DNA of 64,000 nucleotides. Origin: Porphyridium purpureum (lineage: Eukaryota; Rhodophyta; Bangiophyceae; Porphyridiales; Porphyridiaceae). Numbering within the stretch: the stretch's first letter is position 1; each line of letters begins with the position of its first letter. The notes beneath the pieces were generated by a model, which searched no databases, was not told where the DNA came from, and worked only from the letters and a program-made list of their open reading frames with translations. Positions 12,345 through 64,000 of this stretch are shown piece after piece. A program made the position numbers and the translations under genes. Location of the stretch: assembly GCA_008690995.1 (NCBI GenBank), contig VRMN01000001.1, positions 4,092,001 through 4,156,000 of the forward strand. Reading direction: 5' to 3'.

Positions 12345-12351
12345 TACCGTA

Positions 12352-12470
12352 AAGTGCGTCTCAAACAAATAGGACACTGCAAAATTTGTCCATTTTCATA
12401 GTAAATTATGAAAGTTTACTATGAAGACGTGTCTTCGAGGGGGAAACAGGATGCTCAAACAAATAGGACA
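12352..12470 (+). repeat. Tc1-like left terminal inverted repeat
   Basis: This matches the reverse complement of 13581-13699 with only a few differences by eye. It contains two direct copies of a 16-base site about 90 bases apart, the likely transposase-binding sites. Confidence 0.9.
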
Positions 12471-12504
12471 TTTGACAAAGAGAGACTATATGGAGCTCTA
12501 GGGA

Positions 12505-13518: not shown

Positions 13519-13580
13519 TTCCCGCCCGAAATCGCCCTCTTCTTGTCGACTGGCCGCCGCCGGGCGCGCCAAAACGCTTG

Positions 13581-13699
13581 TGTCCTATTTGTTTGAGCAT
13601 CCTGTTTCCCCCTCCGAAACAGGTCTTCATAGTAAAATTTCATAATTTACTATGAAAATGGACAAATTTTGCAGTGTCCTATTTGTTTGAGACGCACTT
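13581..13699 (-). repeat. Tc1-like right terminal inverted repeat
   Basis: Partner of the repeat at 12352-12470. Its inner end overlaps the region just before the transposase start, so the transposase promoter probably lies inside this repeat. Confidence 0.9.
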
Positions 13700-13708
13700 T
13701 ACGTAAAA

Positions 13709-27424: not shown

Positions 27425-30400
27425 TCAACGCGAATCACCAGTGGACGGGGACAGGAGAGGCGATGACAAACCCCACGCGCGCGCGTGTCCGCGAAAGACG
27501 TCGGCGCCTACGGGCTTGGTGAACGGATCAGCCACGTTGGCCCTGGTGGGTACGTGTTCAAAAGCGACGAGATGCTCGCTGTGCAGCTCATGCAGCCATG
27601 CGAGGCTTATGCGTTGGGTCTTGTTTGCATGAACTAGCACTGGGCTGAATCCCTTCGACACCGCACCGAGTGAGGTCTCGTTATCGCATCGCACGGTTGT
27701 ACGCGGCCACTTCGCAAATACATCATCCAGGAATGTTGCGATTGGGAACGTCGCGTTCTGCACCGCACTGTGCATTGCCACCAATTCCGCCTCCGCGGTT
27801 GACGTAGCGACGCGCCTTTGGCGACGGCTTGACCACTCGACAAGATGACGAGTGCCGCCGGACGCAAGAAAGATAGCGACACCACTTGTGGAGCGGCCGG
27901 GATCCAGATCCGAATCAGTGAAGCAGACAATGTTGATCTCCTTGTTATCTGTGCTTGGCATCGCGTATTGTAAGGTAATATTTGCGTGCTTCGCGAGATA
28001 CGCCAATACCTCATCCATGGCACGCTGGACATCCACTGACCATCGATCGGTATGTCTGGCAATCATGGCCACCGCGTATGCCAAATCCGGTCGTGTCGTA
28101 CGTGACAGCCACATCAACTTGCCCAAGCAAGCGCGCGCTTCCGGTGGGCAGGCATTCAATTTCTCGCTCGTCTCGATTCGTGTAGACAACGGTGTCGCCC
28201 TCGCGCGCCCCCCTTTGTGGGCCGTGGCGATGTATCTGGCGTACTCGCCACTATCAAAGATCCAGGCTTCATCCTGGCGGTACACGTTGACACCGAGATA
28301 GCGTATGGGCCGTGCGCGTGAGCTTTCCGACAGAAGCTGCGCGCTCTTCGTGATCCTGAACATGCGCACCAGCTCGTGCATGGCCTCGTTCACCGAGGCA
28401 GTGGTGCCCAAAATGGCCCCGTCATCGACGTAAAGCACTAGTAGCGTTAGCACTCCGGCGCGCCGACGCCAATAAACGTTCTTGTCTGCAGCAGACTCAC
28501 TCCAGTGGGCGGCGCACAGTTTCTGGCGGGCGTACGCGGAATAATCGAAACCTGCGCGCGGCAGACCATATAGTGCCATTGGCAACGGGACCACGGGGTC
28601 CTTCAAACTTGCGATCTTCCGCAGAACATGACGTGTAACGATTCCTTCCAAAAACGGCACCAGAGACTTGAAATACGCGAACGTGGGGTTCCCTCTCAAT
28701 GGCGCGTGGACATACGCGGCATCGATATCGAAAAATAATGCATCAGCTGCGGCGCCGTGCACGTGCAGTGCGACGGACACGGCCGCGCGTATGCTGGAAA
28801 GACCAGGCGGCCGGTCAAACTGTGGTGTTTCAGGCGGTGCACGTTTGCCATCCACATCCGTGATGTGGCAACCCTGTGCCACGATGCGACATTTAAGCAT
28901 TCGGTGTTCCGGCGGCATCTCGCTGTTCTTGATGGCGAGGATCGGCTTCAACTTAACAAACCGCGCGTTCGGCACGCGTGCGGCTTCGCATCGGCCTAGT
29001 GCTTTCTGGAATGGTAGCGCACCGCTACTGATGAGCGTATTCATTTCTTTGGTGAAGGCCAGACGTCCCGCCTGCGTCCGCGAATGCGTGGCAAACGATA
29101 CTACTTCAGCCACACCAAGGTGCAAGCTATCGCAGCCCGGTGCGGCGCTCTCCGATTGCATTTGCTGCGCCACATTGAGGACGGCTTGACGGGCGCGGAT
29201 GTCTCCTGCTGTCCGGCCGCGTCGGTGCTTACCTAACCCCGTAGCCTTTTCTCCGAGCAGGCCGATTGCGCTCGCGTGCGAGCGCAACGCCAGGCCCCCG
29301 ACTCCGCTCAGCGCTTCGCCACCTGTATCGCAAATGGTTTTCCATTTCGGCCCATGAGCTGCGTACCCGGCACGCAGTGCGTCATCCATCTCGGTGCTCC
29401 ATGAGCGTCGCTCGTACTCCTCCCTTGACGCCGTCGTGGTCGGGACGTCAATGTCTTGCTTTTGCAGGGCTTGCGCCTTTTCCTCGTCATGATCCTCTGA
29501 TCGAGCACGCTCCGGCGTCCGATCCCCATCGGGATCGAGCACTGCATGCCACTCAGGCATTATCCGATCCACTGCTCCCTCATTAGAGCGTTGTTCCTTG
29601 CTAGGGAACACACTTGTTGACAAGCTCCACTCTCCCACCCACTTGGCGGCTGAGGGGCGGAGATTGTCGAGCGGAATTGCGAGAACGTTGAGCGGGGTGC
29701 GGTTGGTGGTCGGTGATGGGAATCGGATGCCCATGACGAGGGACAGCATACCCCTGGGGTGAAACTTGGCACGTTCCGCCGTCATGATATAAACTCCACG
29801 GCCAAAAGGCGGGATATCGCGCTCCCACTTGCGTCCGTAGCGAGCCTGATACGGCGCGATACCATCCCTGCTTTTCCAGGCGGCATTACGTGCGTTGGCC
29901 CAGTACTTCGCGGCGAACGCGAACCATTCCGGCTCGAGCCCGGCGGTCAGCAGCAGCGTGCGTACTCCTGCATTGAGATCCCGGTGTACGCGTTCGTGCG
30001 TTGCGTGCGTATTTGGTCGGTGAGCTAGTCCCGATTCGTGGGCCACGAGGTTGGCCTTCAGTGCGACTTCGAACGCGCCCTGGAACTCGCGGCCTTCGTC
30101 ACTCCTGACGAGTCGCGGCCAGCCGCGACCGCGTTGTATTTCAAGGAAAGCGGTCAACGCGCTTTCCGCGGTCTTGTTCGCCAGGGGCGCCACAACAAGC
30201 CACCCGGTAGTCGCGTCCCTGTGCGTCAGGAGCCATCTCGCGCCGCAGATACCGTACTCAGTTGGATCGACTAGGTCGACGGAAACGGTATCGTTGAACG
30301 CAGAGAACTGGGGCGTTTGCGTGCGGCGTGGTGCGCGCATGGTCTGAAGCTTGGATGCCTGACAGGCATCGCAATCAGCGCGTGCAGGCATGTGGAGCAC

Positions 30401-31975
30401 CTCGTGCTCAATGCCGACCGTGCCCCCGCTGCTTTCATTTTGCTCATTGGTCGCGGCACATTCCAAAGTATCCGGTGTCCTTGCGTTAGCGGCGTTCCTT
30501 GTGTATTGTCTTGGAGTAGAGACATCCAGCAAGATCTTGCCGCCGACCTGCAGCTTGGCCTGGTGCTCGTTGAGCCAGTCGAGACCAAGGATCATTGCAT
30601 GGTGCCCGCTGTGCACCCATGCCTCTGTGCGTTCTTCGACGATGCCTGGCACCGTAAGCAAGAACGACGCTTTGCCCGTGATTGGCTTGGTGCGTCCATC
30701 GGCCAGACGAATTCGTGGCCCGTTCGACCCGCTTTTCGTGAAAGGGACTCTAAGTTTGTTGCACACCGCCTCTGATACAAATGTCGCGGTTGCACCGGTA
30801 TCGACTACCGCGTTCGATGCGTGGCCATTGATAAAAACGGGCAATTGGATCAAGTCCGACTTCGCGAGTGCGGCCGCACCAATCTCAAACTCCGCGACAC
30901 CCAACTCGTGGGTGCATTCGGCGGCCCAGTGGCCGCGGCGCCCACAGTTATGACACGTATCCGCTCCGACGCGGGCGGTCCTTGACGGTGCTTGCGGCGC
31001 GCTCCTCGGCACGGTGCGCTGCTGGTTCTTCGGGCGTTTCTTGCTTTTTCTGTTCGGTGCTCGTGTCTGTCGGCGCGGAGCCTCGGCCGATCCTAGATCC
31101 ATTGGCGCTGCATCTTTTTCAGCAAATGCTGACGCGTGCACGCTTTGCCGAAATACGGCGTCGACTGCCAATGCGGCGCGAAGCGCCTCATGGTACGATG
31201 CAGGTTGCCTTAGCAGCACCTGAATTTGAATCTTGCTCTGCAGACCGCGCACAAAACGATCGAGCCGCTCGGAATCACCGACCGACGGGAGCCTGAGCAG
31301 GCAGTTTCCGAAATCGTTTGCGTAGTCGTGGACGCTGCGGTTGCGCTGCGCACAAGCGGCAAGCCTGTCACGCGCGACCTGGTCCGAGGCGATGGGTTCG
31401 AATTCCCGCCTGAACGCCTGCAAGAAGTCATCAAACCGGACAGGCTTTGGGTCAAGCACTGACCACCAAAGCCTAGACGCCCCATGAAAGAAGGAGGCGG
31501 CGATACGCACACACTTCTGTTCAGCATCATCATCCCACGGATGAGAGCCGGCGCGATACTCCTCTTGGAGCTGGATGTAGATCCGCTCGCTAGCGGTCTC
31601 ACACCACGCGCCGACCGCGAGTGCATCCCTGTCCCCAAGAAATGGCGCCATTGGCGCGGCTTTGACTTGCGACGCTGCTTCGGCTCGCGGGTATGCGCCG
31701 TTGCGCCATCGATGCATCTCGGCAGCAAGAGCATTACGCTCCTCTTGCACCTGCCCAAGGAGCTCCTCGCGCATTCGCGAGAACTCTTGGGCCAACGCCT
31801 GGCGTATGTTTTCTATGTCACTCGCGGCGCTGGTCGTTGCCTGCTGCTGCTGTTGTTGTTGTTGCGCAGCGGCCTGTGCAGCCAGCTCGGCCTGCATGGC
31901 CTGCTGCTGCTGGCGAGCGAGCGCTGCGGTGCGCTCCTGCTCGAGCCTGGTGGGGGTCCTTTGACCTGATTCCAT
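27425..31975 (-). CDS. Copia gag-pol polyprotein
   Basis: 1516 codons in a single frame. A Gln-rich N-terminus leads the gag. A CCHC zinc knuckle (CHNCGRRGHWAAEC) lies at about residue 340. The aspartic protease has VDTGATATFVSE at about 390. The integrase zinc region and catalytic core cover about 540-720. A segment at about 855-885 resembles a Myb/SANT helix. Reverse transcriptase, with FFDIDAAYVHAPL, YGLPRAGFDY and LYVDDG near 1180, spans about 1010-1260. RNase H, with CFTDSDLDPGRST near 1350, runs to about 1490. Gag and pol are fused with no frame change, as in many copia elements. Role: transposition by reverse transcription. Confidence 0.95.
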   Translation of the reverse strand: MESGQRTPTRLEQERTAALARQQQQAMQAELAAQAAAQQQQQQQQATTSAASDIENIRQALAQEFSRMREELLGQVQEERNALAAEMHRWRNGAYPRAEAASQVKAAPMAPFLGDRDALAVGAWCETASERIYIQLQEEYRAGSHPWDDDAEQKCVRIAASFFHGASRLWWSVLDPKPVRFDDFLQAFRREFEPIASDQVARDRLAACAQRNRSVHDYANDFGNCLLRLPSVGDSERLDRFVRGLQSKIQIQVLLRQPASYHEALRAALAVDAVFRQSVHASAFAEKDAAPMDLGSAEAPRRQTRAPNRKSKKRPKNQQRTVPRSAPQAPSRTARVGADTCHNCGRRGHWAAECTHELGVAEFEIGAAALAKSDLIQLPVFINGHASNAVVDTGATATFVSEAVCNKLRVPFTKSGSNGPRIRLADGRTKPITGKASFLLTVPGIVEERTEAWVHSGHHAMILGLDWLNEHQAKLQVGGKILLDVSTPRQYTRNAANARTPDTLECAATNEQNESSGGTVGIEHEVLHMPARADCDACQASKLQTMRAPRRTQTPQFSAFNDTVSVDLVDPTEYGICGARWLLTHRDATTGWLVVAPLANKTAESALTAFLEIQRGRGWPRLVRSDEGREFQGAFEVALKANLVAHESGLAHRPNTHATHERVHRDLNAGVRTLLLTAGLEPEWFAFAAKYWANARNAAWKSRDGIAPYQARYGRKWERDIPPFGRGVYIMTAERAKFHPRGMLSLVMGIRFPSPTTNRTPLNVLAIPLDNLRPSAAKWVGEWSLSTSVFPSKEQRSNEGAVDRIMPEWHAVLDPDGDRTPERARSEDHDEEKAQALQKQDIDVPTTTASREEYERRSWSTEMDDALRAGYAAHGPKWKTICDTGGEALSGVGGLALRSHASAIGLLGEKATGLGKHRRGRTAGDIRARQAVLNVAQQMQSESAAPGCDSLHLGVAEVVSFATHSRTQAGRLAFTKEMNTLISSGALPFQKALGRCEAARVPNARFVKLKPILAIKNSEMPPEHRMLKCRIVAQGCHITDVDGKRAPPETPQFDRPPGLSSIRAAVSVALHVHGAAADALFFDIDAAYVHAPLRGNPTFAYFKSLVPFLEGIVTRHVLRKIASLKDPVVPLPMALYGLPRAGFDYSAYARQKLCAAHWSESAADKNVYWRRRAGVLTLLVLYVDDGAILGTTASVNEAMHELVRMFRITKSAQLLSESSRARPIRYLGVNVYRQDEAWIFDSGEYARYIATAHKGGRARATPLSTRIETSEKLNACPPEARACLGKLMWLSRTTRPDLAYAVAMIARHTDRWSVDVQRAMDEVLAYLAKHANITLQYAMPSTDNKEINIVCFTDSDLDPGRSTSGVAIFLASGGTRHLVEWSSRRQRRVATSTAEAELVAMHSAVQNATFPIATFLDDVFAKWPRTTVRCDNETSLGAVSKGFSPVLVHANKTQRISLAWLHELHSEHLVAFEHVPTRANVADPFTKPVGADVFRGHARAWGLSSPLLSPSTGDSR

Positions 31976-50171: not shown

Positions 50172-51353
50172 TCAATCTCGAAGATCTGTATCGCGGCGGG
50201 CAGCACGAGCTCGTGCAGGTACCACTGCCTCTGAAGAACCCTCACGTCGGCCTCGCCGCTCTCTGGCGCGGTTGTGCGCGCGATCCCACAACTTGTACGC
50301 GCTGAACGCGCACACTACTGTCATTAGTGCGGTTGAGCCTGTCAGATTTACGTAAATGCCGGCCAGCAACGCGAAGCCCAAGCCAAAGGCCTGATGGCTG
50401 ACATGCTCACCCGTCTTGCACCAGCGCGCAAAAGTCTCGCAATTATCGCTTATAATGTTGTACCGGCTATGCCCGATTTTGGATTCGGCGCGTTCCACCA
50501 CCTCATCTGGGGGAAGAAGCTTGCGCCGTTGCGTGCCGGTGTACTCCACAATGTGCACGCGCGGTGAGGTCCACTGGAACTCGGTCATTGCCGTTCGTCC
50601 TATTCTGCCCAAATTCATGGACTTGACACCATCAATGCCCGTGTAATGGATCACAGTCCCATCGCCACAGTCGATACCGTGGTGCCAGTACCCAACTGCC
50701 CCATCTTCGTCATCTGGGTCGCCACGCCAAACCATCAGGTGTTCGCCCTTGCCGTACGTGACCTCCTCATTGCCGCGCCCAGACATCGCCGACCCTGGCG
50801 TTACCAGTTCCGCCCCTGATCGGTTTGCGAGCGACTGTGGCGGAGTGGCAAGTACTAAGGTCATATTCGAGCCCGTGCTCAGCTCGTCCCCCGATACGGA
50901 GCGCGAATGCGGTGCGCTCCGAGCGGTCTGGATAATGTCCGCACGTCCCAGGCTCGTCTCAGTAAATCTGCGCCGCAGCAGCCCGTCGCGCTCGTTTGTA
51001 TTTCTGTCAACATCTGGGGTCTGGTCACGCTCATACTCTAGCCGCACAAGCCTGCTTCTCGACTGGCCCACGGGCTGGAGCTGCGGACTCGGAGATGCCC
51101 AGTAATTATGTGTGGTAGGACTCTGCGTGAGCGGCGACGGCGTGTAGGGGACATATGCTGTACTGCCTGGAGTTACCGTCGCTCCCGCTGCGGCGGCAGC
51201 GGCGGCAGTTTCCGGAGGTCCAGCTTCTGCCGCCACGCCGGCGGTATACGAGAACGAGCGCGAGCGCGGTACCGACGGCTGGAGCGCGAAAGGGCGCACA
51301 GAACGCCCTCGTGCCTGGCCGTCCATGTCCGAGGCGGCAGCGGTTGATTCCAT
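50172..51353 (-). CDS. LRAT-domain protein with C-terminal membrane segment
   Basis: 393 residues from the ATG at 51353. The first 200 residues are Ser/Thr/Pro/Arg-rich and probably disordered. The LRAT (NlpC/P60-like) domain spans about 205-325: EHLMVWRGDP, GYWHHGIDCGDGTVIHYTG with the catalytic His, and NIISDNCETFARWCKTGE with the catalytic Cys of the NCE(H/T)F motif. One or two hydrophobic segments follow (GLGFALLAGIYVNL; ALMTVVCAFSAYKL), then a basic Arg-rich tail. LRAT proteins are acyltransferases or phospholipases at membranes. The substrate here is unknown. Confidence 0.85.
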   Translation of the reverse strand: MESTAAASDMDGQARGRSVRPFALQPSVPRSRSFSYTAGVAAEAGPPETAAAAAAAGATVTPGSTAYVPYTPSPLTQSPTTHNYWASPSPQLQPVGQSRSRLVRLEYERDQTPDVDRNTNERDGLLRRRFTETSLGRADIIQTARSAPHSRSVSGDELSTGSNMTLVLATPPQSLANRSGAELVTPGSAMSGRGNEEVTYGKGEHLMVWRGDPDDEDGAVGYWHHGIDCGDGTVIHYTGIDGVKSMNLGRIGRTAMTEFQWTSPRVHIVEYTGTQRRKLLPPDEVVERAESKIGHSRYNIISDNCETFARWCKTGEHVSHQAFGLGFALLAGIYVNLTGSTALMTVVCAFSAYKLWDRAHNRARERRGRREGSSEAVVPARARAARRDTDLRD

Positions 51354-53189
51354 GCGGAACTCTCGCTGACGAGCAAAGAAAGACTGTCCCCGTTTACCCC
51401 GCGCCAACTCTTCCAACAACAAGCGGTGGAACGCGCGCACGCAAATACGCACACACGGACTCTCCTTCGCGCCACGAACTTTACCTTCTCCCAAGCTCTC
51501 ACCGTTCGCACCACGTCCAGCACAACACGTCACCTCCCGCTCAAACGTTTAAATCCAACACACCTTTTGGCTCCAGCGGCATATTTCGGGAAGATCTTTT
51601 GGCTGTGTGAACGTGCGCTTGGATGATGGAGCATTGGAGTGGCGCAGAGTGCTCTCCTCGGGAGACGCACGAGGTCGATGCCCAGTAGTCCTTCCCGGCG
51701 CACGCGTCAAGATGGTGGTACGACTAAGCATGAGTGCGAGTCTAATGATTCGCGCGTACTGGATTGTCCGTTGGGCTTGGCTGTGCCGGAGTATTTACGG
51801 ATGGACGGCTTTGTGGTCTGATGCAAGAATTGATGGCATAAGCGGTCATCAATGTCCCGCGCGGCCGGCGTTCCCGGCATGGCAGCGTATCTAGATCGTA
51901 GCTTCCGACCACGTATCGAAACTCGGCCCACGCGGAAGCACGTTCTAGAGTTGCTCTCTTGTCAGAGAATGGCAGAGTCGCGCATTTCCGCCATGAAAGC
52001 GCGAAGCGATACAGCTTTAATATCTGCCGAAGTATAAGAACCCTGTTTTTCTTGTGACCAGGATGATACCTTCAGGGACGACCTTGACGAGCTGATTCAT
52101 TCGCACAAACGATTGCGGTAGAGATTATGGAGACTTTCTCCCTCCCGGAAGTACACGTAGCGCGTATCGGGAAGCAATGCGTGCATTCCGGCGGACCGCC
52201 TGCTCCTTCGCGTTTTCCATCGTCAGCGTAAAAGCATGAATGAGTAGGGCTCGCGGTCAGAATGCGTTGGATTATTGCATACAAATTGCGGTTCTGACGT
52301 GCTCGCGAAAACCAACACCAGATATCGCTGCGATAAGAACGCGCAAACGGAATGCTTGGACTCATCATGTGGGACGAATCCAATATTACTTGGCATTGCG
52401 GCTCCAAACGCTTTTATTGACTGCAACCGTATCCGCCGATCAAACCGTCCGCGACCTCTTTTTCCGTGCGGCGTCGCCAGTCGATGTGGATTATTTTGGT
52501 CGTACGGTGCCCGGGAAATGTCCAAATACGCTCGTGCCAACCTGCGGCGATATGAACTGCGAGTGCGAAAACTGCCTTGCCTAGGACTTGCGGAAAGACA
52601 GACTGCTGGTTGCTCGCCCCCAGTATCTATTTTGTTATGGGGAGACGGCGAGGAACGGGTTTGGCAGCGAGCTCGAGCTTTGCCCTTCTTACAGCAGCCC
52701 TTGATCTTTCCGTGTTCTTCGTAGGTGAGAAGTGCAAGCTGCATGTTCATGGCGAGGTAAATTGGGATGTGATTCAGACGCAAGCGTTCAGTGAAAGGGC
52801 GGGAAAGGCATTGCTATCTAGCCTCGCTGACCTGTTGACATTTCCGTCCTTCGCTTGCTCCAGTGTGGGCTGATTTGCCAACTCTTGTTCTGATATTGGT
52901 TGCTCCATGTACGCGCCGACAGCAGAGTTGACGGAGGAAGCCATCGGTATGTTCACGCGTGGCGGCGTTGCTTGATTGTGACACATGAGTAGGTAGCGTC
53001 GTATTTGGCCACGACGACCGTGCCATGCACGGATATTGCCATGTAAACGTTGACTTTAAGTTTGCGAGGTCCGCCGGAACTGCTGACTACGAATGTGACA
53101 GCGAGTCTGTCGACTTCGCCAGGAACAGCCACGTCGATGCATACACTAGGTCCGTCGACTGCGACGCAACGCACTCTTACGTCTTCGCC
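51354..53189. other. 1.8-kb intergenic region, no supported gene
   Basis: Several frames of 60-190 codons overlap on both strands without domains or consistent composition. The first 200 bases are the LRAT gene's 5' flank. Nothing else is supported. Confidence 0.45.
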
Positions 53190-53650
53190 CACTCCTGCTT
53201 GCGTCGACTTTGTTTAGATGGCGGCGCACGTGCTGAAGGGGCATGCGAGCGATCGTTCCAGCTAGCTGTTGTGCATTACGGGACCCGAGGAGCTGCTGTG
53301 CGGCGCGTGCGACCATGTGCTCGAAGTGACTGTGGACGCCGGCGCCGCGAGGATGCGGTCGGCCAGCTCGACGCTGCGTACGTACGAGGAGGTGTGTGCC
53401 GATCGCGAGTGCACGACCAAGGTTGGTCGGTTCAATGGCGTGCTGCATGGGGACGCACACAAGCTGCCCATTCAGGACGGCCACCGCTTGACGACGGTGC
53501 CATGCTGCCACATGGGTTGGGTCAAGGTTGAGCTCCGCATCGTGGTGTGTGCGTAGAAACGGCATTGCATGCACGTGAACTGTGCGACGACGCACGTGAA
53601 GCGAAGGAACAACGACGCGCCCCTATCCCGGGATGCCGCCGATGCGTGAG
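53190..53650 (+). pseudogene. Decayed copy of the shared secreted C-terminal module
   Basis: The best-preserved part, 53260-53530, encodes [19 protein letters not shown] and [20 protein letters not shown], almost identical to the modules at 56005-56451 and 61155-61601. Weaker DNA similarity extends upstream into the Pro/Thr linker (about 53190) and downstream to the GATGCCG...GATGCGTGA end (about 53650). The reading frame is interrupted on both sides and no N-terminal domain or signal peptide is attached. This is a host-gene fossil and the oldest-looking of three copies. Confidence 0.85.
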
Positions 53651-54429
53651 GGAATTTCCTCTAATCTCATGCGGTGCGGGACGAGCAACGTTTTCTTTCT
53701 TTTGGTGCGCCCTGGACCGAGTTCCATTCGCTCGCCACCGATAGGCAGAAGTGTTGGCGCGTGGGTCGAATCGCGAAGCCCGAACTATTGTGGCGGAACC
53801 GAACAAGCCGCGAGGTTTCCATCGCGCGCACCACGTGGCGCGTGAGTGCTCGCGGACCGTTTCGCCGTCGGTGGCGAGCACCGACGCAGCAGCCCAATCT
53901 ACGATTTGTGATGATCAACCTTGGACCACAATGGGTCAGTGACAGCATAAGCGATAGAAATTCAAATCTGCTGACGCGAGCAGAAAAGAAGCGATTCTGG
54001 TGAGTGAAAGGAGAGCCGCGTGGTCTCCGCATTGGGGAATGACAGAAAAGGCCAGCTGCTTTTTGCGCGAGATTTGCCGCGCGTCAACTACTAGCAAACT
54101 GGGGCTGGCGCGTGATTTTTGATCCTGGGCAGTCGCAGACTTGGATGCGAATCAGGTCGCGCGTCGACGACTGACAGAGAGAGAGAGACAGAGCCATGCC
54201 ATTTCAGGTGGGCTACTTGGAACATGGCACTTAAAAAGAGGTGGGCGTGCGCAGCTGGGTGAAATTGTGAAGGGCTGAGTGTCGAAGGAGAGCACCAAGG
54301 TCGAAGGCGAGGAGAAGGTCGGAAAGAGATTGGTTGAAGCGTTTGCGGCCCTGCGAATTAACTGCTGCGGCTGCTGTGTATTCGGCTGAGTGGGTCTCTG
54401 CGGATTTTGCGCGCTTTGCGTCGAACCTC
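53651..54429. other. Promoter region of the Cys-rich secreted protein gene
   Basis: Contains a short (GA)n run at about 54176-54192 and purine-rich sequence up to the ATG. No gene seen. Confidence 0.45.
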
Positions 54430-56454
54430 ATGGCGGTGATGGGCGCGCGCAGTGGCGCGTGGCACCGGCTGCCACAGGCACTGCTTGTGGTGGTTACAGT
54501 ATTCGTCGTGCTGGTTGCCTGCGCACCGCGCGCAGTGCTTGCCGCGCGCAATGAAAAGCTGGTAGCGAAGGCTGCGCATCGCGCCTTGAAGCAGAGCGTG
54601 TTGCCGGGGATGGCACCCGCGCCGTCTTTGAGCAGCGTGATGGCTAAAGCCAAAGGGGACCAAGCGCAGCTGGCCGAGGTGGTGTCTCGTCAGGACATTT
54701 CCGAATCCTGCGTTGCTGCCCTGCAATCGGAGTGCAGTGTCGATCTGATGGACACGGAATCCACAGTGCCGTGTGTCGCGTGCTATGAGGGTGAAGGGGA
54801 AGATTTGGGCGCCCTGTTCCAGTGCTTGGAGTCCTGCTGTGAGACTTTCGTTGACTTTGCACCCTGTTTTCAGAACGTCTTGGAGAGTGAAGACTGCAAC
54901 GAGAATGATCAACAAGCTCTCGCATTTTTGGTTGGTTTCTTGCAAACTCCGCTTTTGCAGTGCTCGTGGTCCGACTGCCTGGAGGCGGTAAGTGCCGAAT
55001 GCGACTCGAATGTACTGGAAGGTGACTATCCATGTTCCGACTGTGCGAATGAGGAAGACAGTGAGTGTCTAGATGGGTGCTGTGGTGATTTTGAGACCTA
55101 CCTTGATTGTGCTTTTTCAACCATTGATGAATCGGAGATGTGTACGGAAGAAAGTGTGGGAATTGTTATTGGCTTGCTGATTCTCCCTGTGGCTGGTCCC
55201 GTCGCCGAAGCATGCGGCCAACAGGTCTTGTCGCCGGCTTGTAGAGAACAGGCTGAAGAACTCGACTGCGCAGAGGATGCTTTCGATGATATTGAGACTT
55301 GCGCCATGGATTCATCAGTACAAGATTGTTGCGAGCGAGCTGCAAGAGGTTTCTACTGTTTCGAAAGCTTTTTCTTTACCAGCGAGGAATGCCAAGTGTC
55401 TGCTGTGCTCCTATCTGTCGCTCTTTTGTACTCTTCGAACGAAGCGAATGAGCAATGTGCGAATGAGTTGGGTCAGATGGAATGGGATGCACTCCAGACT
55501 GGTGTGTGTGTGGAAGAGGTTGGGAATGAATGCGGCATCAATTTTAATGATCTCGAGTCTTTCCCATGCGCGGAATGCGGAGATGATGATCCTTCTTGCT
55601 ATCAGATGTGCTGCCCGATGTTTGGCCCCGTTGCGCAGTGCGCGCAGATTTCGATTCAAGCATGCACACCGTCGGGTGCGGGCGGTGTGATTTCAAACCA
55701 GGAGTTTTCCAGCTTCTTTACCATGACTAGTGCACAGTGCATGGCGAGTCAGGCCACTGCGACGCCAGGGGTATCTCCGACAGCGACACCGGTCCCATCA
55801 GTTTCGCCGGGAACGGCGACGCCGGTCCCATCAGTTTCGCCAGGAACGGCGACGCCGAGTCCATCGGTTTCGCAAGAACCCACACCCACACCGGTCCCGT
55901 CGGGTTCGCCAGGAACGCCCACGCCGACTCCGTCGGATTTGCCAGGAACGCCGACGCCGACTCCGACTCCGTCGAGTCCGCCAGAACCCACACCCACTCC
56001 GGTGTGCATTGATGCTGAATGGATCGAGGCGCGCGGGCTGGAAAAGGTGCATGCGAGCGACGGTGTCGGCGAGCTGCTGTGCATTACGGGACTCGAGCAG
56101 CTGCCGTGCGGCACGCGCGACCATGTGCTTGAGGTGACTGTGGACGCCGGCGCCGCGAGGATGCGGTCGGCCAGCTCGACGCTGCGGACGTACGAGGAGG
56201 TGTGTGCCGAGCGCGAGTGCACGATCAAGGTTGGTCGTTTTAATGGCGTGCTGCATGGGGACGCACACAAGCTGCCCATTCAGGACGGCCACCGCTTGAC
56301 GACGGTGTCGCGCCGAGGCACAGTGTGGAGCGGGTTGGAGAACCGCATTGTGGTGGGAGCGCAGAAGCTGGAGTCTGTGTACGTGAACCGTGCGATGACG
56401 TACCTGCAGCGAAGGAACAGCGCCATGCACTTGTCGAAGGATGCCGATGCGTGA
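54430..56454 (+). CDS. Secreted Cys-rich repeat protein with shared C-terminal module
   Basis: 674 residues from the ATG at 54430; upstream the frame reaches only a TTG. Signal peptide: basic N-terminus, hydrophobic core [17 protein letters not shown] and cleavage near AVLAA. Four tandem Cys-rich units follow (about residues 90-430), each with pattern C...C...C-x2-C...C-x3-C-C...C. Examples are [10 protein letters not shown] with [16 protein letters not shown] with CLDGCC, and [10 protein letters not shown] with CYQMCC; the third unit is degenerate. They are acidic. Next is a Thr/Pro/Ser-rich linker (about 445-525), a likely site of O-glycosylation. The last 149 residues (526-674) form a module shared almost exactly with the Fea1 protein at 59886. 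No family recognised for the Cys units. Extracellular or wall location is likely; metal binding is possible. Confidence 0.82.
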
Positions 56455-56544
56455 CGGAAAACCTATCGAAACGGGTAGAATTGGGAGATTCGTGCTGAAG
56501 CAGCGTTGAAGTGGGAATACTTTTGGGCGATGTTATTGTTCTTT

Positions 56545-56585
<41 letters not shown>

Positions 56586-56862
56586 CCTTTTGTTTCTTGA
56601 CCTTTGTTTTCTTGTTGTTGCGGTTGCTACCGCTGTGTTCCCGGTAGCGCTGCTAGTTTGGGTTGGTAAAATTGTCAGCGATGCCTCGTTGCGCGAGAAG
56701 CCTCATGAGCCAGCGGGGCTTGCATGTGGCTCCTGCTCCTGATCGAGCTGCGGGCGCCAGCGAAGTGACCCATCCATATGTCCACACTCACCGCAGCCTC
56801 GCTGTGGTCCCCATCAGAAAAGCGTCTTCAGCTTTCACGCTCCATTAAGTTTACTCATGGCG
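56005..56862 (+). repeat. Duplicated block copy 1: C-terminal module plus 3' flank
   Basis: Nearly identical to 61155-61997. The match includes the 149-residue module, the stop, the 3' flank with a T-rich tract and about 280 bases beyond it, ending soon after TTTACTCATGGCGG. Upstream similarity continues through the Pro/Thr linker. The T tract is 40 uninterrupted T here (56546-56585) but is broken by C and G in copy 2. Confidence 0.93.
56546..56585 (+). repeat. Homopolymer of 40 T
   Basis: An uninterrupted 40-base T run about 90 bases after the stop of the Cys-rich gene. The homologous position in copy 2 (about 61695-61730) is T-rich but interrupted. It may be expanded by slippage or by sequencing. 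Confidence 0.9.
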
Positions 56863-57348
56863 GTACGGACGGTGAGCGATGCAGATGCTTGTTGTTGTGT
56901 TGAAGATCGAGCACGATGGCCGTGAGAGAGGCAATGTACAGTCATCAGTGTACTCATAAGCTAAAGTTGTTACCGCCCAGAAGACCCAAGGCTTCTATCC
57001 AGAGCCCAGGCCCAACAGCTTGGCGGCTAAGCTGTCCACCTGGGACTTCTCCTCTCCCCTGTCGGCAGTACTGAAGATTGCACACCAACAAATTTCAACA
57101 AATAGATGCTTTTACTCTCGCAATCCTACCTCTCAAACTTTTCCAACGTGAGCGGCCGGCTGGCTCGCATCCATTTGATACCCGTCGGCTGGCCGGAGTC
57201 CGCCATCTCGCACCGTCTCACATCTCCACCGAATCACCACAGTCACCACTCATACCGCCATCACCAGTCCGCACCCTCTTCGTCACTGCGCGCTGCAAGT
57301 CTGCATCCGCTTGGCGCTTCCGCAGCGCGTTTCGAAGCGCCTGCAACA
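56863..57348. other. Intergenic between duplicated block and Tc1-like copy 2
   Basis: About 490 bases with one GTACAGT at about 56935 and pyrimidine-rich sequence toward the transposon. No gene seen. Confidence 0.45.
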
Positions 57349-58551
57349 AAGTGCGTCTCAAACGAATAGGACACTGCAAAATTTGTCCATTTTCATGGTA
57401 AATTATGAAATTTTACGATGAAGACGTGTTTCGGAGGGGGAAACAGGATGCTCAAACAAATAGGACACAAGCGTTTTGGCGCGCCCGGCGGCGGCCAGTC
57501 GACAAGAAGAGGGCGATTTCGGGCGGGAAATGGGGCGCGCGGGTGCGTTGACCGAGGCGGAGAAGCGTGCCATCTGGGGATGGCGCGCGGAGGGGCTGAA
57601 ATTGTCCGATATAGCCACACGCGCGGATCGGTCCAGAAATGCCGTAAAACGCTTTCTGGACCAGCCCGACGCGGGCCCAGGCTACGTCGGTAATCAGAAT
57701 GCCCGTAAATTCACAGGACCCGCTCAAACGCACGTTCTAAATAAACTCAGAGCGGCTCCTAGGAGCCCTCTAAAGGCTCTCACAATGCAGGTCAATACTG
57801 GCAGGTCCCAAAGGAAGCCGGTAAGCCGTGAGACAGTGACGCGCAATATGGCCGATGATCTGTCCTTTCGGCGTGCCATCGTGAGGCAGCCTCTTTCCCG
57901 TGAGAATCGGCTGCGTCGCGTGGCATTTGCCACGCAAAATCTGAATAAAGTTGAAGAGCATAGAAAAGTCATCTTTACGGATGAAAAGAAGTTCAATTTA
58001 GATGGCCCTGATGGGTATTCTGGTCAGTGGGTCCGGACAGGAGAGTTCCCGGATCGAGTCCGCCGTCATACGGGCGGCGGAAGTGTGATGTTTTGGATGG
58101 CAATTTCTTCCGCTGGGAAGATGGCGCTCCTGAAGACCCCAGCAAGGATCACTTCAGAAAACTATGTGGCCATGCTGGAGTCCTCTCGAGTGGCGACCAT
58201 CTTCGGTGAAACCCATCCAGAAGGATGGACATTCATGCAGGACAATGCCCCTGCTCATGCGGCGCGGAATACAAAGTCCTTCTTCGCGCGCGAAGGCTGG
58301 CATGTAATGGATTGGCCAGCGTACTCGCCAGACCTGAACCCGGTGGAGAGCGTGTGGACCATTATGTCGCGCCGAATTTACGCGGGAAACAGGCAGTATG
58401 AGTCTCTCTCAGAGCTGGAGGCTGAAATCATAGAAGTCTGGGCATCGATCACGAACGCAGAGGTTCGGAGCCTTCTGACGGGGTGGAATGCACGTCTACA
58501 CCGGTGCGTGAACAAGAAGGGCGCGAACGTCCAGAACTTTTAGTCCCTAGA
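57349..58551 (+). mobile_element. Tc1-like element copy 2, one end missing
   Basis: This is the element of 12352-13699 in opposite orientation. The left terminal repeat (from AAGTGCGTCTCAAAC at 57349) and the transposase frame are kept. Similarity stops at about 58551, so roughly 147 bases with the other terminal repeat are absent. The base pair before the left end is CA, not the expected TA. It has lost autonomous mobility in cis, although the enzyme frame is open. Confidence 0.93.
57530..58543 (+). CDS. Tc1-like transposase, copy 2
   Basis: 337 residues from the ATG at 57530, differing at only about 4% of positions from the copy at 12505-13518 by eye. The helix-turn-helix region and all three DD34E acidic residues are kept (FTDEKKFNLDG, FMQDNAPAH, NPVESVW). 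Because the element lacks one terminal repeat, this copy could supply enzyme but not move itself. Confidence 0.93.
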   Translation: MGRAGALTEAEKRAIWGWRAEGLKLSDIATRADRSRNAVKRFLDQPDAGPGYVGNQNARKFTGPAQTHVLNKLRAAPRSPLKALTMQVNTGRSQRKPVSRETVTRNMADDLSFRRAIVRQPLSRENRLRRVAFATQNLNKVEEHRKVIFTDEKKFNLDGPDGYSGQWVRTGEFPDRVRRHTGGGSVMFWMAISSAGKMALLKTPARITSENYVAMLESSRVATIFGETHPEGWTFMQDNAPAHAARNTKSFFAREGWHVMDWPAYSPDLNPVESVWTIMSRRIYAGNRQYESLSELEAEIIEVWASITNAEVRSLLTGWNARLHRCVNKKGANVQNF

Positions 58552-58991
58552 TGTTATCCGCCGACCCCGCGGATACCTAGTTTTGCGGGATCCTTGCTAT
58601 GGCCTTGCTGTGGCCTTGCTGTGGCCTTGCTGGTGCACTGTCATTTTTTCTCACAGTGCTACCCGGCGAGCTGTAGAACACGGGGCGGCAGTCTATATAC
58701 AGGCGTGGAGACCCGCGAGCAGGCTCGGGGACAGAAAGGAAGAAGAGAGAGAGGTAGCGAAGGGGAGAGAAGAAGGAGAGGGAAAGTAAAAGGAAAAGGA
58801 GGTTCATAACACTTCTTTCACTTCTCACAGAACGACGTTCGAGCTCTTGCGCAATCAAGTCTTGCTAGCTTTCGGTCGGGTGTCAAAAGACAGATTATTC
58901 ACCACACGATGGAAGGCATATTGCTGGTGCATTGCGCTCCGGACTGTGGTCCATGATGCAATTTTGTTCCTCCGCAGGAGCAGATTCTCGG
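58552..58991. other. Intergenic with short tandem repeat and purine tract
   Basis: Three copies of a 12-base CCTTGCTGTGG-type unit lie at about 58600-58633. A long purine-rich tract (58731-58805) resembles the leaders upstream of genes elsewhere in the window, but no gene follows it. Confidence 0.5.
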
Positions 58992-59386
58992 CTACCAGTC
59001 ACGCTTTTTGAAAAGCTCGCTCAAACCTTCACTATTCGTGATCCTTTCCACAACGGCCGGCGTGAGCTTCGACGGGTTGGTGGAAGTGTACTTGAGACTG
59101 TAGGCATCAGGACCTGCTGAGAAGCGGCGAATTGCGCTACCGGAGCGGTTTATGTTACGCGATATTGCCTGCAGACCGTCGCATACTGCCTTGAAGGCCA
59201 AAATGGCTCTTTTTCCGCGCTCTGAGAGTCCGCATTTGCGTCGCATAGTACCTGGGCGATGGTGTCGCACATGAGCGCACACGAAGATCAAAATTCGTGC
59301 CGCCTGTCCACGCGCAGCCTTGGATTGTCGCTGATATTGTTCCCGGTCCTATCCTATTTGTACGCACTTTATTTGTCCGCACTTTA
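58992..59386 (-). mobile_element. Relic of a divergent Tc1-like element
   Basis: A minus-strand frame (58992-59291) encodes LSERGKRAILAFKAVCDGL and SRNINRSGSAIRRF, matching the transposase N-terminus of the two larger copies (LTEAEKRAIWGW, ATRADRSRNAVKRF) at lower identity. Toward 59386 the end sequence AAAGTGCG(T/G)ACAAATA occurs twice in a row (minus strand), like the terminal repeats. The catalytic part is absent. This is an older, related subfamily, truncated. Confidence 0.75.
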
Positions 59387-59885
59387 TTACAGCTGTACTC
59401 CGGTTTGTACAGCTCTCCGGCATCTCTGAGGATGACATTTAAATGCATTCATTCACAAATTACCACTAATACTCGCTTAATGCTCCCAAAAGTCCACGTC
59501 AGCTTCATTTTCGGCCTCTTTGCGTCTTAGATCGAGTGGTAAGCGGGTATAAGGGGTATTCGCGAGTTTAGATTTCCCTGGTTGCGAACTGATGGGAGAA
59601 GTGGCGCACATGGTGGCCGTGCCTGAGTGAATATCGGCGATGAGAATGGAAACGATGATTGCGCGAAGGGAAGGAGGCACGAATCGGGCAGTGTCCGTGG
59701 AATGGTGTGCAGCCTCCGATGGGTATTAAAGCGCTTCGCGGGTTGGTGATGGGCAGGAATGAGAAGGGAAGGCGGACAGGTGCGGGGTGGACAGTGGTGG
59801 GCAGAGACGGGCAGACGGGAAGGAAGGAACCATAGCACTGCGCCGGAGGCGAGAGGGGTGAGACACCAAAGTGTGGGAGACCGCC
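59387..59885. promoter_or_regulatory. Fea1-gene promoter region
   Basis: The 130 bases before the ATG (59756-59885) are purine-rich with many GGG and GAA runs, as in other leaders here. A TATTAAA element lies near 59725. No iron-responsive element was recognised. Confidence 0.5.
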
Positions 59886-61604
59886 ATGAAGATGTTCGCT
59901 CTGGGCATCCTGGTGGTTGCGATTGCCGTCCTCGCAGATCATGGCGAGGGCCAGACAATTGCTGGATACACGTTTGAAAGCGACGTCATTGATAGGGCAG
60001 AAATTGATCTTGATATGGCGGACATCAGCTCTCTCACTGACGCATCCGAGTTCGTGGGGGCCAAGACTCTGTATGAGAATGGGCTGAATTCCGTGAAAGC
60101 AGACGGATCGATCCGTACGATTCGTGGCCTGTCGACTTCGGCGGGTACCAAGATGACGGGTCAGCCTACCTTTGACACTTATGAGGCCTACTGGGGTTCT
60201 CCAAACTATGGGGATAACTTTGTTATTCAGGCACTCGATGGGACAGGCATGTTTGCCGCGGCTTCGAATATCTTTCGGGCCGAATGTGCCACTAAGGGTG
60301 CCCAGTACCAGATTGTGTGGATGTATGTGATCCACGAACTTGAGGACGGCCGAAATGATTGTCTCGCCGGAGACATTAATGATAATATTGGGGGTGTGCA
60401 GGCAGTCGACGAGGGATGGGCCTTTTACACTGGTTCCTTGGTTGGGGAGCTTGGAACAGAAGCCGGACAGTTGCTCTGGGGTTTGGCGGAGAAGCGTGCT
60501 ACCAACTTTGACACTATCACCGACGGAAAGGCAACCGTGAACACCAGGCTTTTGGAGTTGTGGAAAAAGTTGCAGGCATCGAGCCAGAGTGATTGCGCGA
60601 ACATGCGCGAAGATATTGATGAAGTCATCAGGCTGCTGCTGATCCCTCTGTACCAAGGAGCCCTTCGCTATGCTTACAGAGCGGATCCTGCCAGTGGCTT
60701 CGGCGGAGGAAGCAAGGAGTGGGGAGAAGGATGGGCTTTTGTTGCCGCCCTCTTGCCGATGGCCGCAAGGGAAAGCCCCGACGACGTTGCTTACATTCGC
60801 AGCAACTTCGACCCGGAAAGCACCAACGCTCCGGTAGGCGACGGGTACGAGGCAGTGATGGACCGTCTGTACAGCAGTGCTGCGAAGCTAGGGATTTCCG
60901 CCGAAGAATTGGGAACTCTTGGTGAGTTGAACACTGGAACGCCGACGCCGACTCCGTCGGATTCGCCAGGAACGCCGACGCTAACACCCACACCGGTCCC
61001 GTCGGGCTCGCCAGGAATGCCGACGCCGACGCCGACTCCGACTCCGTCGGATTCGCCAGGAACGGCGACGCCAACACCCACACCGGTCCCGTCGGGTTCG
61101 CCAGGAACGCCGACGCCGACTCCGACTCCGTCAGAACCCACACCCACTCCTGTGTGCATTGATGCTGAATGGATCGAGGCGCGCGGGCTGGAAAAGGTGC
61201 ATGCGAGCGACGGTGTCGGCGAGCTGCTGTGCATTACGGGACTCGAGGAGCTGCCCTGCGGCACGCGCGACCATGTGCTTGAGGTGACTGTGGACGCCGG
61301 CGCCGCGAGGATGCGGTCGGCCAGCTCGACGCTGCGGACGTACGAGGAGGTGTGTGCCGAGCGCGAGTGCACGACCAAGGTTGGTCGGTTCAATGGCGTG
61401 CTGCATGGGGACGCACACAAGCTGCCCATTCAGGACGGCCACCGCGTGACGACGGTATCGCGCCGAGGCACGGTGTGGAGCGGGTTGGAGAACCGCATTG
61501 TGGTGGGAGCGCAGAAGCTGGAGTCTGTGTACGTGAACCGTGCGATGACGTACCTGCAGCGAAGGAACAGCGCCATGCACTTGTCGAAGGATGCCGATGC
61601 GTGA
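59886..61604 (+). CDS. FEA1: Fea1-type iron-assimilating secreted protein with shared C-terminal module
   Basis: 572 residues from the ATG at 59886 (context CCGCC before ATG); a GTG lies upstream. Signal peptide [17 protein letters not shown]. Residues about 25-350 match the Fea1 / low-iron-inducible periplasmic family (Chlamydomonas FEA1, H43): [15 protein letters not shown], two repeated motifs [10 protein letters not shown] (about 176) and GEGWAFVAA (about 281), and [10 protein letters not shown]. These Glu-rich motifs are candidate metal ligands. Next is a Thr/Pro/Ser linker with repeated [14 protein letters not shown] units, then a 149-residue module (424-572) that differs from that of the Cys-rich protein at about three positions. 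Chlamydomonas FEA1 is secreted, helps capture iron and is induced by low iron. The added module is unusual for the family and may anchor the protein in the wall or mucilage (inference). Confidence 0.88.
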
Positions 61605-61997
61605 CGGAAAACCTATCGCAACGGGTAGAATTGGGAGATTCGTGCTGAAGCAGCGTTGAAGTGGGAACACTTTTGGGCGATGTCATTGTTCTTTGTTTTG
61701 TTTTTTCTTTTTTCTTTTTTCTTTTGTTTCTTGACCTTTGTTTTCTTGTTGTTGCGGTTGCTACCGCTGTGTTCCCCGTAGCGCTGCTAGTTTGGGTTGG
61801 TAAAATTGTCAGCGATGCCTTGTTGTGCGAGAACCGTCATGAGCCAGCGGGGCTTGCATGTGGCTCCTGCTCCTGATCGAGCTGCGGGCGCCAGCGAAGT
61901 GACCCATCCACATGTCCACACTCACCGCAGCCTCGCTGTGGTCCCCATCAGAAAAGCGTCTTCGGCGCTCACGCTCCGTTAAGTTTACTCATGGCGG
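61155..61997 (+). repeat. Duplicated block copy 2: C-terminal module plus 3' flank
   Basis: Partner of 56005-56862, with the same order of module, stop, T-rich tract and downstream flank. Similarity ends at about 61997, after TTTACTCATGGCGG. The upstream Pro/Thr linker is also shared. Confidence 0.93.
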
Positions 61998-62179
61998 CGA
62001 AGATTAGTGATGGAGATGCTTGCGAAGGGACGCAACTCGGCGTGTCGCAAACGCGTGCGGGGCATGCTGCTTGACCGATACGGTCAAGTACACGAGCTCG
62101 GAGACTGCGCACACTAGCGCGTGAGCACGTGCAGGCTGCTCTAGAGCTAAGAGACTGTGGGAGCTGCTGTCCACGTACC
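61998..62179. promoter_or_regulatory. Short promoter region of the oxidosqualene cyclase gene
   Basis: Only about 180 bases lie between the end of the duplicated block and the cyclase ATG. The cyclase promoter therefore probably overlaps the duplicated 3' flank. Confidence 0.4.
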
Positions 62180-64000
62180 ATGTGGGTGCTGCGGTGCGAG
62201 CGAGGCCGGCAGTGGTGGGAGTACCAGGGAGCGCTGGATGATGGTGGTCCTGGCGCGGACGCCGAGCAGCAACGCGTGCGCGGACTGCAGCAGCTGGCAT
62301 TGCGCGAGATTGATGAGCGGCGTACGCTCTACGCCAAGAATCGAGCGCAGCAGCGCCACGCTGGCGATTTTGTGCTCCGGACGCTGGCAAAATACAATGT
62401 GTGCTGGGATGGAAACCCGCGCAATCGCGACGAGACGGATGCTGATTTACACGTGGTACCGGCCGCTATAGATCAGCACGATCCACTGGGTGCGGCGGTT
62501 TTTCGGGGCGTGCGCTTTTTCGGATCGCTGCAGATGAAGGATGGGCACTGGCCAGGCGATTATGGTGGGCCAATGTTCTTGATGCCCTTCCTGATCTTTG
62601 CGTGCCACGCAACACACACGCCACTTGGCGAGCAGCACAAGCACGAAATGGCACGCTACATTCGCAACATGCAGAACGATGAGGGCGGCTGGGGCCTGCA
62701 TATCGAGCACCACGCGACCATGTTTGGAACCGTGCTCAACTACGTAGCACTGCGTTTACTGAATGTGCCCGCTGATGACGCAACATGTACCGCGGCGCGT
62801 TCGTGGATTCGCTCGCACGGTGGTGCCACGGGAATTCCTTCCTGGGGAAAGTTCTGGCTCGCAGTACTGAATCTGTACGACTGGCGAGGCCTGAACCCAC
62901 TCACGCCTGAAATGTGGTGCCTGCCGTACTGGCTACCTATCCATCCGGGTCGCTACTGGTGCCACGCGCGTCAGGTATACCTACCGATGTCGTACATTTA
63001 CGGCTGCCAGTTCAGTGTGCCAGTCGACGATTTGATTCTCAGTCTACGCGAAGAACTTTTTGTGCAGCCCTTTCACCAGATTGAGTGGTCAAAAATGCGA
63101 AATCATTGTTGTCAGATTGATGAATATTTCAAGCGCCCACGCGTGCAAAAGCTGTTCTGGGGCATACTCGCATGGTACGAGTGGTGTCCACTGTTTGCGC
63201 CCTTGCGACACGCGCTGCGTCGGACCGGATTGCGTAAGGTAATTGATCACGTGCGACAAGAGGACCGCAACACCAAGTGGATCGACATCGGACCCGTCAA
63301 CAAGGTAATTAATTTCTTGTGCTGCTTTGTCGACAATGCTGATGGTGCAGACATCGAGCTTCACCGCGACCGTCTAAAGGACTATCTTTGGCTTGCCGAG
63401 GACGGCATGAAGATGCAGGGATACAACGGCTCACAGCTGTGGGATACGGCATTCGCCGTACAGGCGATCACGGAAAGCCCTGATATCGCAGCGCATTTTC
63501 CAAACACGATTGCCGCCGCGCACGAGTATCTGGACGTCGCGCAGGTTCTGGAAGACGTGCCCGAACGCGACAGCTATTATCGTCACATATCCAAAGGCGC
63601 ATGGCCATTCAGCACCAGCGATCACGGCTGGCCGATCTCAGACTGCTCATCCGAGGGCCTCAAGGCAACGCTAGCCCTACAGCAACGCGAAATGCTAGCG
63701 CTGATCGCAAAGAGACCGGACGCGCCGTCGCTCATTTCGGAAGAGCGGCTGTTTGACTGCGTCAACGTGATTCTGTCTTTCCAGAACACAAAATGGCCAA
63801 ATTGCGACGGAGGCTGGGCTACGTATGAGCTGACGCGCTCGTTCGCGTGGCTTGAGCTACTCAATCCGTCCGAAATCTTTGGTGACATTATGATTGATTA
63901 TACGTACGTGGAGTGCTCTTCGGCATGCATCACCGCCCTTGTCGCATTTCAGCGGCATTTTCCGCACCACCGCAAGGACGAAATCGCGGACGCCCTGGCG
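62180..64000 (+). CDS. CAS1: Oxidosqualene cyclase, cycloartenol synthase type (partial, runs off window)
   Basis: 607 codons from the ATG at 62180 to the window edge; the family is about 760 residues, so some 150 C-terminal residues are missing. The start MWVLRCERG matches the usual MWxL N-terminus. QW-type repeats are visible (GHWPGDYGGPMFLMP, GGWGLHIEHHATMFG, YNGSQLWDTAFAVQAI, CDGGWATYE). The catalytic segment reads DHGWPISDCSSEGLK with the proton-donor Asp at 488. His482 and Ile486 in this segment match plant cycloartenol synthase (His and Ile) rather than lanosterol synthase (Cys and Val). It cyclises 2,3-oxidosqualene on the ER, the first step of sterol synthesis in algae and plants. 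Confidence 0.94.
   Translation, partial: MWVLRCERGRQWWEYQGALDDGGPGADAEQQRVRGLQQLALREIDERRTLYAKNRAQQRHAGDFVLRTLAKYNVCWDGNPRNRDETDADLHVVPAAIDQHDPLGAAVFRGVRFFGSLQMKDGHWPGDYGGPMFLMPFLIFACHATHTPLGEQHKHEMARYIRNMQNDEGGWGLHIEHHATMFGTVLNYVALRLLNVPADDATCTAARSWIRSHGGATGIPSWGKFWLAVLNLYDWRGLNPLTPEMWCLPYWLPIHPGRYWCHARQVYLPMSYIYGCQFSVPVDDLILSLREELFVQPFHQIEWSKMRNHCCQIDEYFKRPRVQKLFWGILAWYEWCPLFAPLRHALRRTGLRKVIDHVRQEDRNTKWIDIGPVNKVINFLCCFVDNADGADIELHRDRLKDYLWLAEDGMKMQGYNGSQLWDTAFAVQAITESPDIAAHFPNTIAAAHEYLDVAQVLEDVPERDSYYRHISKGAWPFSTSDHGWPISDCSSEGLKATLALQQREMLALIAKRPDAPSLISEERLFDCVNVILSFQNTKWPNCDGGWATYELTRSFAWLELLNPSEIFGDIMIDYTYVECSSACITALVAFQRHFPHHRKDEIADALA

Follow-up and report, generated by a model that had tools for sequence, protein, structure and literature searches.

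A C-terminal module shared, with its linker and 3′ flank, by a Cys-rich gene and a neighbouring Fea1-type gene of Porphyridium purpureum

Introduction

Proteins in which different domains are joined by long repetitive linkers have been described from red algae. In the Cyanidiales, Thr/Pro/Ala-rich repeats connect kelch domains with trefoil or hint domains, and the accessible part of the report describes these proteins as occurring in differing combinations, as recently duplicated and subtelomeric and as varying in the length of their linkers, with a signal peptide named in a figure legend (PMC9812998).

Among the Fea1 proteins of algae, Ot-Fea1 has a predicted C-terminal transmembrane (TM) helix, according to the available text (PMC4855317). 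A fusion of the signal peptide and TM anchor of ISIP2a to a human transferrin domain is described as restoring uptake in the part of the source at hand (PMC7676907). As FEA1 of Chlamydomonas is secreted into the periplasm in the portion of the account available, an anchor is not obligatory for Fea1 proteins (PMC8098128).

The DNA analysed here, referred to as the window, is a stretch of 64,000 nucleotides of Porphyridium purpureum (contig VRMN01000001.1 of assembly GCA_008690995.1, positions 4,092,001 to 4,156,000). It contains a gene for a Cys-rich protein (gene A) and a gene for a protein with a Fea1-type ectodomain (gene B), which share their 3′ ends. The features of this locus are listed in Table 1.

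Table 1. Features of the locus, in positions of the window
Feature	Coordinates	Strand	Remarks
Decayed ectodomain of third, Cys-rich paralog	51870..52966	+	two relic blocks in different frames, with 4 and 1 stops
Probable linker relic of decayed paralog	53098..53199	+	Thr/Ser/Pro-rich, in the frame of the module; holds SPGTAT
Decayed module copy	53200..53654	+	three premature stops
Gene-conversion-like tract inside decayed module	53327..53503	+	8/177 differences from A, 7/177 from B
Gene A, Cys-rich protein	54430..56454	+	ORF, 674 aa: signal-like N-terminus, four Cys repeats, linker, module
Cys repeats of gene A, four of ~85 aa	54685-55740 (residues ~86-437)	+	at most 10 Cys each
Pro/Thr/Ser linker of gene A	55753..56004	+	84 aa, 33% P, 23% T
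C-terminal module of gene A	56005..56451	+	149 aa
3′ flank copied with module, gene A	56455..56891	+	DNA comparison with gene B
Gene B, Fea1-type iron-assimilation ectodomain, linker and module	59886..61604	+	ORF, 572 aa; PF07692, NF038033
Pro/Thr/Ser linker of gene B	60936..61154	+	73 aa, 37% P, 29% T
C-terminal module of gene B	61155..61601	+	149 aa
3′ flank copied with module, gene B	61605..62022	+	DNA comparison with gene A

Genes A and B and their surroundings

Genes A and B are neighbours and lie in the same direction, with their modules approximately 5 kb apart. Both encode a hydrophobic, signal-peptide-like N-terminus as judged by hydropathy only, the 19-residue values being 2.61 from residue 14 in A and 1.88 from residue 1 in B. 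The N-terminus of A is followed by a region of approximately 400 residues in which Cys and acidic residues are abundant. The four repeats found there have invariant columns of C, C, CC, C and C, and a single hydrophobic stretch lies among them (19-residue hydropathy of 2.06 at residues 243–261). No Pfam family was detected for gene A, either with the whole protein (E up to 1) or with its ectodomain and module (E up to 10). One of the Cys repeats was modelled with AF2, with the other three supplied as alignment, which gave three helices at a pLDDT of 69.5; no fold match to this model was found in the PDB (best E 8.9). The sole match of the ectodomain to PDB sequences was an antifreeze polypeptide (E 0.85), which was judged to be due to chance, and its 17 exact-short-peptide pattern matches in viral contigs included no relatives.

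Gene B matches the Pfam family Fea1 (PF07692; E 3e-23) with 82.9 bits versus a gathering cut-off of 25, residues 4–267 being aligned with positions 7–256 of the 359 of the profile. It also matches NCBIfam NF038033, a model built for prokaryote annotation, at E 3.8e-46 over residues 26–345 (profile 96–406 of 406), with a score of 157.6 bits that lies below the equivalog cut-off of 250. The latter model is aligned through its final position, at residue 345, and the Pro/Thr linker begins at residue 351, so that by this model the Fea1 domain appears complete at its C-terminus. It is not certain that the whole domain is, given that the Pfam match ends at profile position 256 of 359 and that of NF038033 starts at 96. 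The ectodomain gave no match to PDB sequences, none to plasmids, and 10 exact-short-peptide pattern matches in viral contigs with no relatives among them.

Gene B thus has its Fea1 domain behind a hydrophobic, signal-like N-terminus in the manner of FEA1 and ISIP2a (phytotransferrin). Unlike Ot-Fea1 and ISIP2a, which have a TM helix, it ends in a linker and a soluble module, and this module is additional also in comparison with the FEA1-related lipoprotein represented by NF038033. The construct of Chlamydomonas FEA1 ends at Ala362 in the available part of the source (PMC8098128), compared to the 572 residues of gene B.

A number of other features were observed in the window. Two Tc1/mariner-type elements (57348–58551 and 12351–13700) have open transposase frames of 337 aa that are identical at 323 of 337 residues. 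The first of them lies between A and B, is 97% identical to the other copy over 1204 bases and seemingly lacks its right end. Between this element and gene B, a possible relic of the N-terminus of a second, distant, Tc3-like transposase is found on the reverse strand (58995–59246), with 35% identity over 62 residues (E 3e-4) and a Pfam HTH match below the cut-off. Just 3′ of the copied flank of gene B, the first part of a triterpene cyclase gene (squalene-hopene cyclase superfamily) is found at 62180–62998, and on the other side of the locus a gene for an LRAT-domain protein (50172–51353, reverse strand) adjoins the decayed paralog. Further away, a retrotransposon on the reverse strand (27425–31975) has one open frame of 1516 aa with Pfam gag, aspartyl protease and zinc knuckle matches; no integrase or reverse transcriptase family was detected in it at E 1e-4, and a YVDD motif was seen by eye. 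A divergent gene pair at 982–6227 encodes an MFS transporter, by its position an NRT2-like candidate, and a nitrate-reductase-type molybdopterin/cytochrome b5/FAD/NAD protein. No Rfam match at gathering scores and no tRNA was found in the window.

The shared linker, module and 3′ flank

DNA comparison of A and B showed that 55810–56891 and 60936–62022 are shared at 89% identity with gaps. This block of approximately 1.1 kb starts inside the linker, runs through the 149-residue module and the stop codon and ends after approximately 430 bases of 3′ flank. Between the two modules there are differences at 3 of 149 residues (32, 74 and 98) and at 8 nucleotides, and the 3′ flanks differ at 22 of 416 aligned columns, with 20 gap columns set aside. 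The linkers of A and B differ in both the number and the order of their units, as would be expected were this minisatellite-like sequence the point of exchange.

A preliminary description of this DNA had claimed that unrelated N-terminal domains are followed in A and B by a common Pro/Thr linker, a nearly identical module of 149 residues with about three differences and some 400 bases of similar 3′ flank. The measurements above agree with that description. As for the N-terminal domains, no mutual match of the ectodomains was obtained by tblastn (each against the window, E up to 10) or by blastn, and a DNA comparison with lenient gaps, a weak method, also found the ectodomains and 5′ flanks of the two genes unlike.

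By the Nei-Gojobori method, dS between the modules is 0.047 (5 synonymous changes) and dN is 0.009 (3 nonsynonymous changes). With a total of just 8 substitutions, dN is lower than dS at a one-sided binomial p of 0.026, which reads as purifying selection on the module after copying, as far as so few substitutions can indicate. Since dS (0.047) and the divergence of the flank (22/416) agree, silent sites and 3′ flank appear to be of about the same age, and this agreement at approximately 5% reads as the copying of a single block.

The start of the module is also marked by an edge in base composition. Third-position G+C (GC3) was 0.80–0.81 in both modules versus 0.57 and 0.60 in the ectodomains, and A and B have the two largest within-gene GC3 contrasts among 16 genes of at least 300 codons (21 genes were examined in the window). 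The best GC3 window has its first codon at index 523 in A, where the module begins at 525, and at 423 in B, which is where its module begins. It should be noted that, the two modules being copies, their GC3 steps count as one fact and not as two independent ones. A GC3 of at least 0.80 was also found in 6.5% of 898 windows from other genes, and in a shorter gene outside the ranking (15778–16653, 291 codons) GC3 varies internally by 0.23, as much as in A. The step fits a module with a history of its own, or GC-biased conversion within a family of copies.

A decayed Cys-rich paralog and a conversion-like tract

Upstream of gene A, DNA at 53188–53654 resembles the module with 81–82% identity to the intact copies and is interrupted by in-frame stops at residues 6, 22 and 119 of the module. 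It is preceded by two relic blocks, of which 51870–52373 resembles residues 58–219 of gene A (protein score 83) and 52676–52966 resembles residues 324–416 (protein score 100). In controls, the best of 300 shuffles of gene A scored 60 and the best of 162 pieces of the window, taken in six frames from its first 49 kb, scored 53. The identification of the decayed ectodomain rests on this protein-level test, since a gap-lenient DNA alignment with A did not separate signal from background (1163, compared to a maximum of 1158 in 60 shuffles and up to 1225 for other regions of the window). The SPGTAT of the putative linker relic recurs in both intact linkers.

The order of ectodomain relics, probable linker relic and module is the same as in gene A. 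Each of the two ectodomain relics has a reading frame of its own, different also from that of the module, and all are interrupted by stops. The third module copy forms the 3′ end of a Cys-rich paralog that has decayed, and is not a lone module. The preliminary description had reported only a decayed third copy at 53190–53650; the decayed module is indeed present there, and it forms the end of a gene whose ectodomain relics extend from approximately 51870. The 3′ flank of the decayed copy was not detectably similar to that of A by gap-lenient DNA comparison (285, with a mean of 262 and a maximum of 319 in 60 shuffles).

Divergence within the decayed module is uneven. Its arms, on either side of the tract listed in Table 1, differ from A at 27/127 and 44/148 positions, together 71/275 (approximately 26%, gap columns left out), and the distance of the tract to A (8/177) is far smaller (Fisher p 8e-10). 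The minimum observed versus A or B was not matched by any window of 150 or 177 columns in 5000 permutations of the columns; with windows of 100 columns it was reached in 1 of 5000 versus A and in none versus B. By codon position, the arms differ from A at 29 of 92 first, 24 of 92 second and 18 of 91 third positions, and this absence of a third-position excess is as in a pseudogene. On account of the uneven divergence, the tract of 177 nt reads as a scar of gene conversion. No conversion donor is named because the decayed copy, at sites where A and B differ, agrees sometimes with A and sometimes with B. As the distance of the tract (approximately 4%) resembles the neutral distance between A and B, the copying of the block and the conversion are possibly of similar age. 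The earlier proposal of segmental duplication or gene conversion is in keeping with a copied block of linker, module and 3′ flank and with a conversion-like tract among the copies.

Nature of the module

No family was found for the module in Pfam (E up to 10) or NCBIfam, and hence no match to a known carbohydrate-binding profile. Searches of PDB sequences with the single protein and with a two-row profile gave no relative. There was no pattern match in viral contigs and no relative in phages, and 46 and 78 pattern matches in the genome contigs of a prokaryote collection included no relatives, it being the case for all contig searches reported here that they begin from exact short peptides and so detect close relatives only. 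Two matches to Streptomyces plasmids (E 2 and 8) were judged to be due to chance. An AF2 model of the module had a pLDDT of 31.6. Its two halves are unlike each other, and it has no likeness beyond that of shuffles to the ectodomains of A and B. No title dealing with the module was found in the literature covered, from which most subscription journals are absent, and it is undescribed as far as these literature and database searches go.

Carbohydrate-binding modules occur on Pro/Thr linkers and are common to unrelated extracellular proteins. The present module resembles them as a terminal domain joined by a linker to unrelated proteins, and is unlike them in having no Pfam match. A comparison could also be made with the Hint/Hog domain of Hedgehog, which the module resembles in beginning with a Cys after the secreted part and in length (149 versus 145 residues). 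A Cys at position 1 together with T-x-x-H constitutes the Hint motif, and the module has Cys1 and T37-x-x-H40. Proteins with a kelch-linker-hint arrangement occur in Cyanidiales, and Hog domains in other red algae, according to the accessible parts of two reports (PMC9812998; PMC2362128). Sequence similarity is nevertheless lacking: the module has no Pfam match at E up to 10, where Hedgehog itself matches PF01079 at 6e-53. When compared to the Hint domain of Drosophila Hedgehog (1at0, one sequence only), its local score was 26 versus a shuffle mean of 27.8, its global score was reached by 187 of 500 shuffles and the hhalign probability was 0.2%. The spacing of the motif is also different, with T-x-x-H at 37 in the module versus 69 in Hedgehog. 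A divergent Hint/Hog autoprocessing domain, with cleavage at the Cys that immediately follows the linker, is accordingly regarded as a very improbable identity for the module.

The arrangement in A and B resembles the Cyanidiales kelch proteins, as the available text portrays them, in being red algal and in joining a domain to a different C-terminal domain by long, repetitive Thr/Pro-rich linkers, and further in combining domains in more than one way, in recent duplication, in linkers of varying length and in the signal peptide (PMC9812998). It differs in that one C-terminal module, together with its 3′ flank, is common to two unrelated, adjacent ectodomains, and no kelch, trefoil or hint match to Pfam was found in A or B. 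The logic is the same and the parts are different.

Origin of the shared block

The module probably originated in a Cys-rich family at this locus, with gene A as the intact member and the upstream paralog as the decayed one. Starting from a tandem pair of Cys-rich genes, one member would have decayed, and the 3′ end of the other would have been copied onto the end of the Fea1 gene, with the repetitive linker as the 5′ point of exchange. Judging from its divergence, the short tract would have entered the decayed paralog at a similar time. The plan of Cys-rich ectodomain and module is probably older than its sharing between A and B, since it is present in the decayed paralog, the module arms of which are approximately 26% diverged. 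A direction of copying from the Cys-rich family to the Fea1 gene is suggested by the third copy being the tail of a Cys-rich gene, an argument that depends on one decayed paralog with no detectably shared 3′ flank. On the whole, we consider it quite probable that a module of the Cys-rich family was copied with its 3′ flank onto the Fea1 gene, the direction and timing being inferred.

The same near identity might also have arisen by concerted evolution, with both fusions of ectodomain and module being old and recurrent gene conversion keeping the module and 3′ flank alike, in which case near identity would not date a fresh domain swap. The conversion-like tract in the decayed paralog speaks for such a process, and the high GC3 of both modules would fit GC-biased conversion in a multi-copy family. 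However, divergence is even, at approximately 5%, across synonymous sites and flank, as from one event, and concerted evolution is held to be unlikely, if still worth serious consideration. An error of assembly, by which one copy of the module was duplicated, might be suspected from nearly identical blocks lying 5 kb apart. It is scarcely credible given the 8 coding and 22 flank sites that distinguish the copies, the differing unit numbers of the linkers and the in-frame joining of each module to a different ectodomain.

Possible role of the module

The module has no hydrophobic segment (maximum 19-residue mean 0.66) and its C-terminus reads SKDADA; judged by hydropathy only, neither a C-terminal TM segment nor a hydrophobic GPI-type tail was found in it. 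Gene B as a whole reaches a hydropathy of no more than 1.14 beyond residue 60. Because hydropathy indicates no membrane anchor, the tail of linker and module is the candidate retainer of gene B, if B is retained. The favoured role for the module is that of a soluble retention domain, which would keep the attached ectodomain on the cell surface or in mucilage in place of the membrane anchor found on some relatives of Fea1. For gene A, the hydrophobic stretch at residues 243–261 could hold the protein in the membrane without the module. Retention of the ectodomain at the cell surface or in mucilage by the module is put forward as a tentative reading with somewhat less than an even chance, and the surface display proposed in the preliminary description is likewise a possible role. 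Taken jointly, the history of copying and a soluble surface-retention role fall just short of an even chance.

The module may instead be no anchor at all. It could be a soluble domain that serves oligomerisation, solubility, ligand binding or sorting, or the chimera may simply tolerate it as a passenger. It has neither a hydrophobic segment by hydropathy nor a known binding domain in Pfam (E up to 10), and no finding made here links it to wall or mucilage. On the other side, a plan of linker plus domain is usual for tethering domains, and a mere passenger is not what would be expected from a dN lower than dS in the module, there being 8 substitutions. Such a non-anchoring role is considered possible, though doubtful.

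A wider reading would see in the retention module the end of a large undescribed algal family, in which a minisatellite-like linker carries a soluble domain for retention at the surface, the whole being spread and kept alike by GC-biased conversion as a cassette together with its 3′ untranslated region. This extension is speculative and regarded as rather unlikely. If true, any secreted ectodomain acquiring the linker would obtain a position at the cell surface together with a common 3′ control region.

The locus represents a clear local case of domain gain through copying of the 3′ end of a gene: the probable source family, a decayed relative and a scar resembling conversion all lie within approximately 10 kb. 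Should retention of proteins by the module prove true, this would account for how a Fea1 protein lacking a membrane anchor remains at the cell surface, and the module would be a candidate tag for surface display in microalgae.
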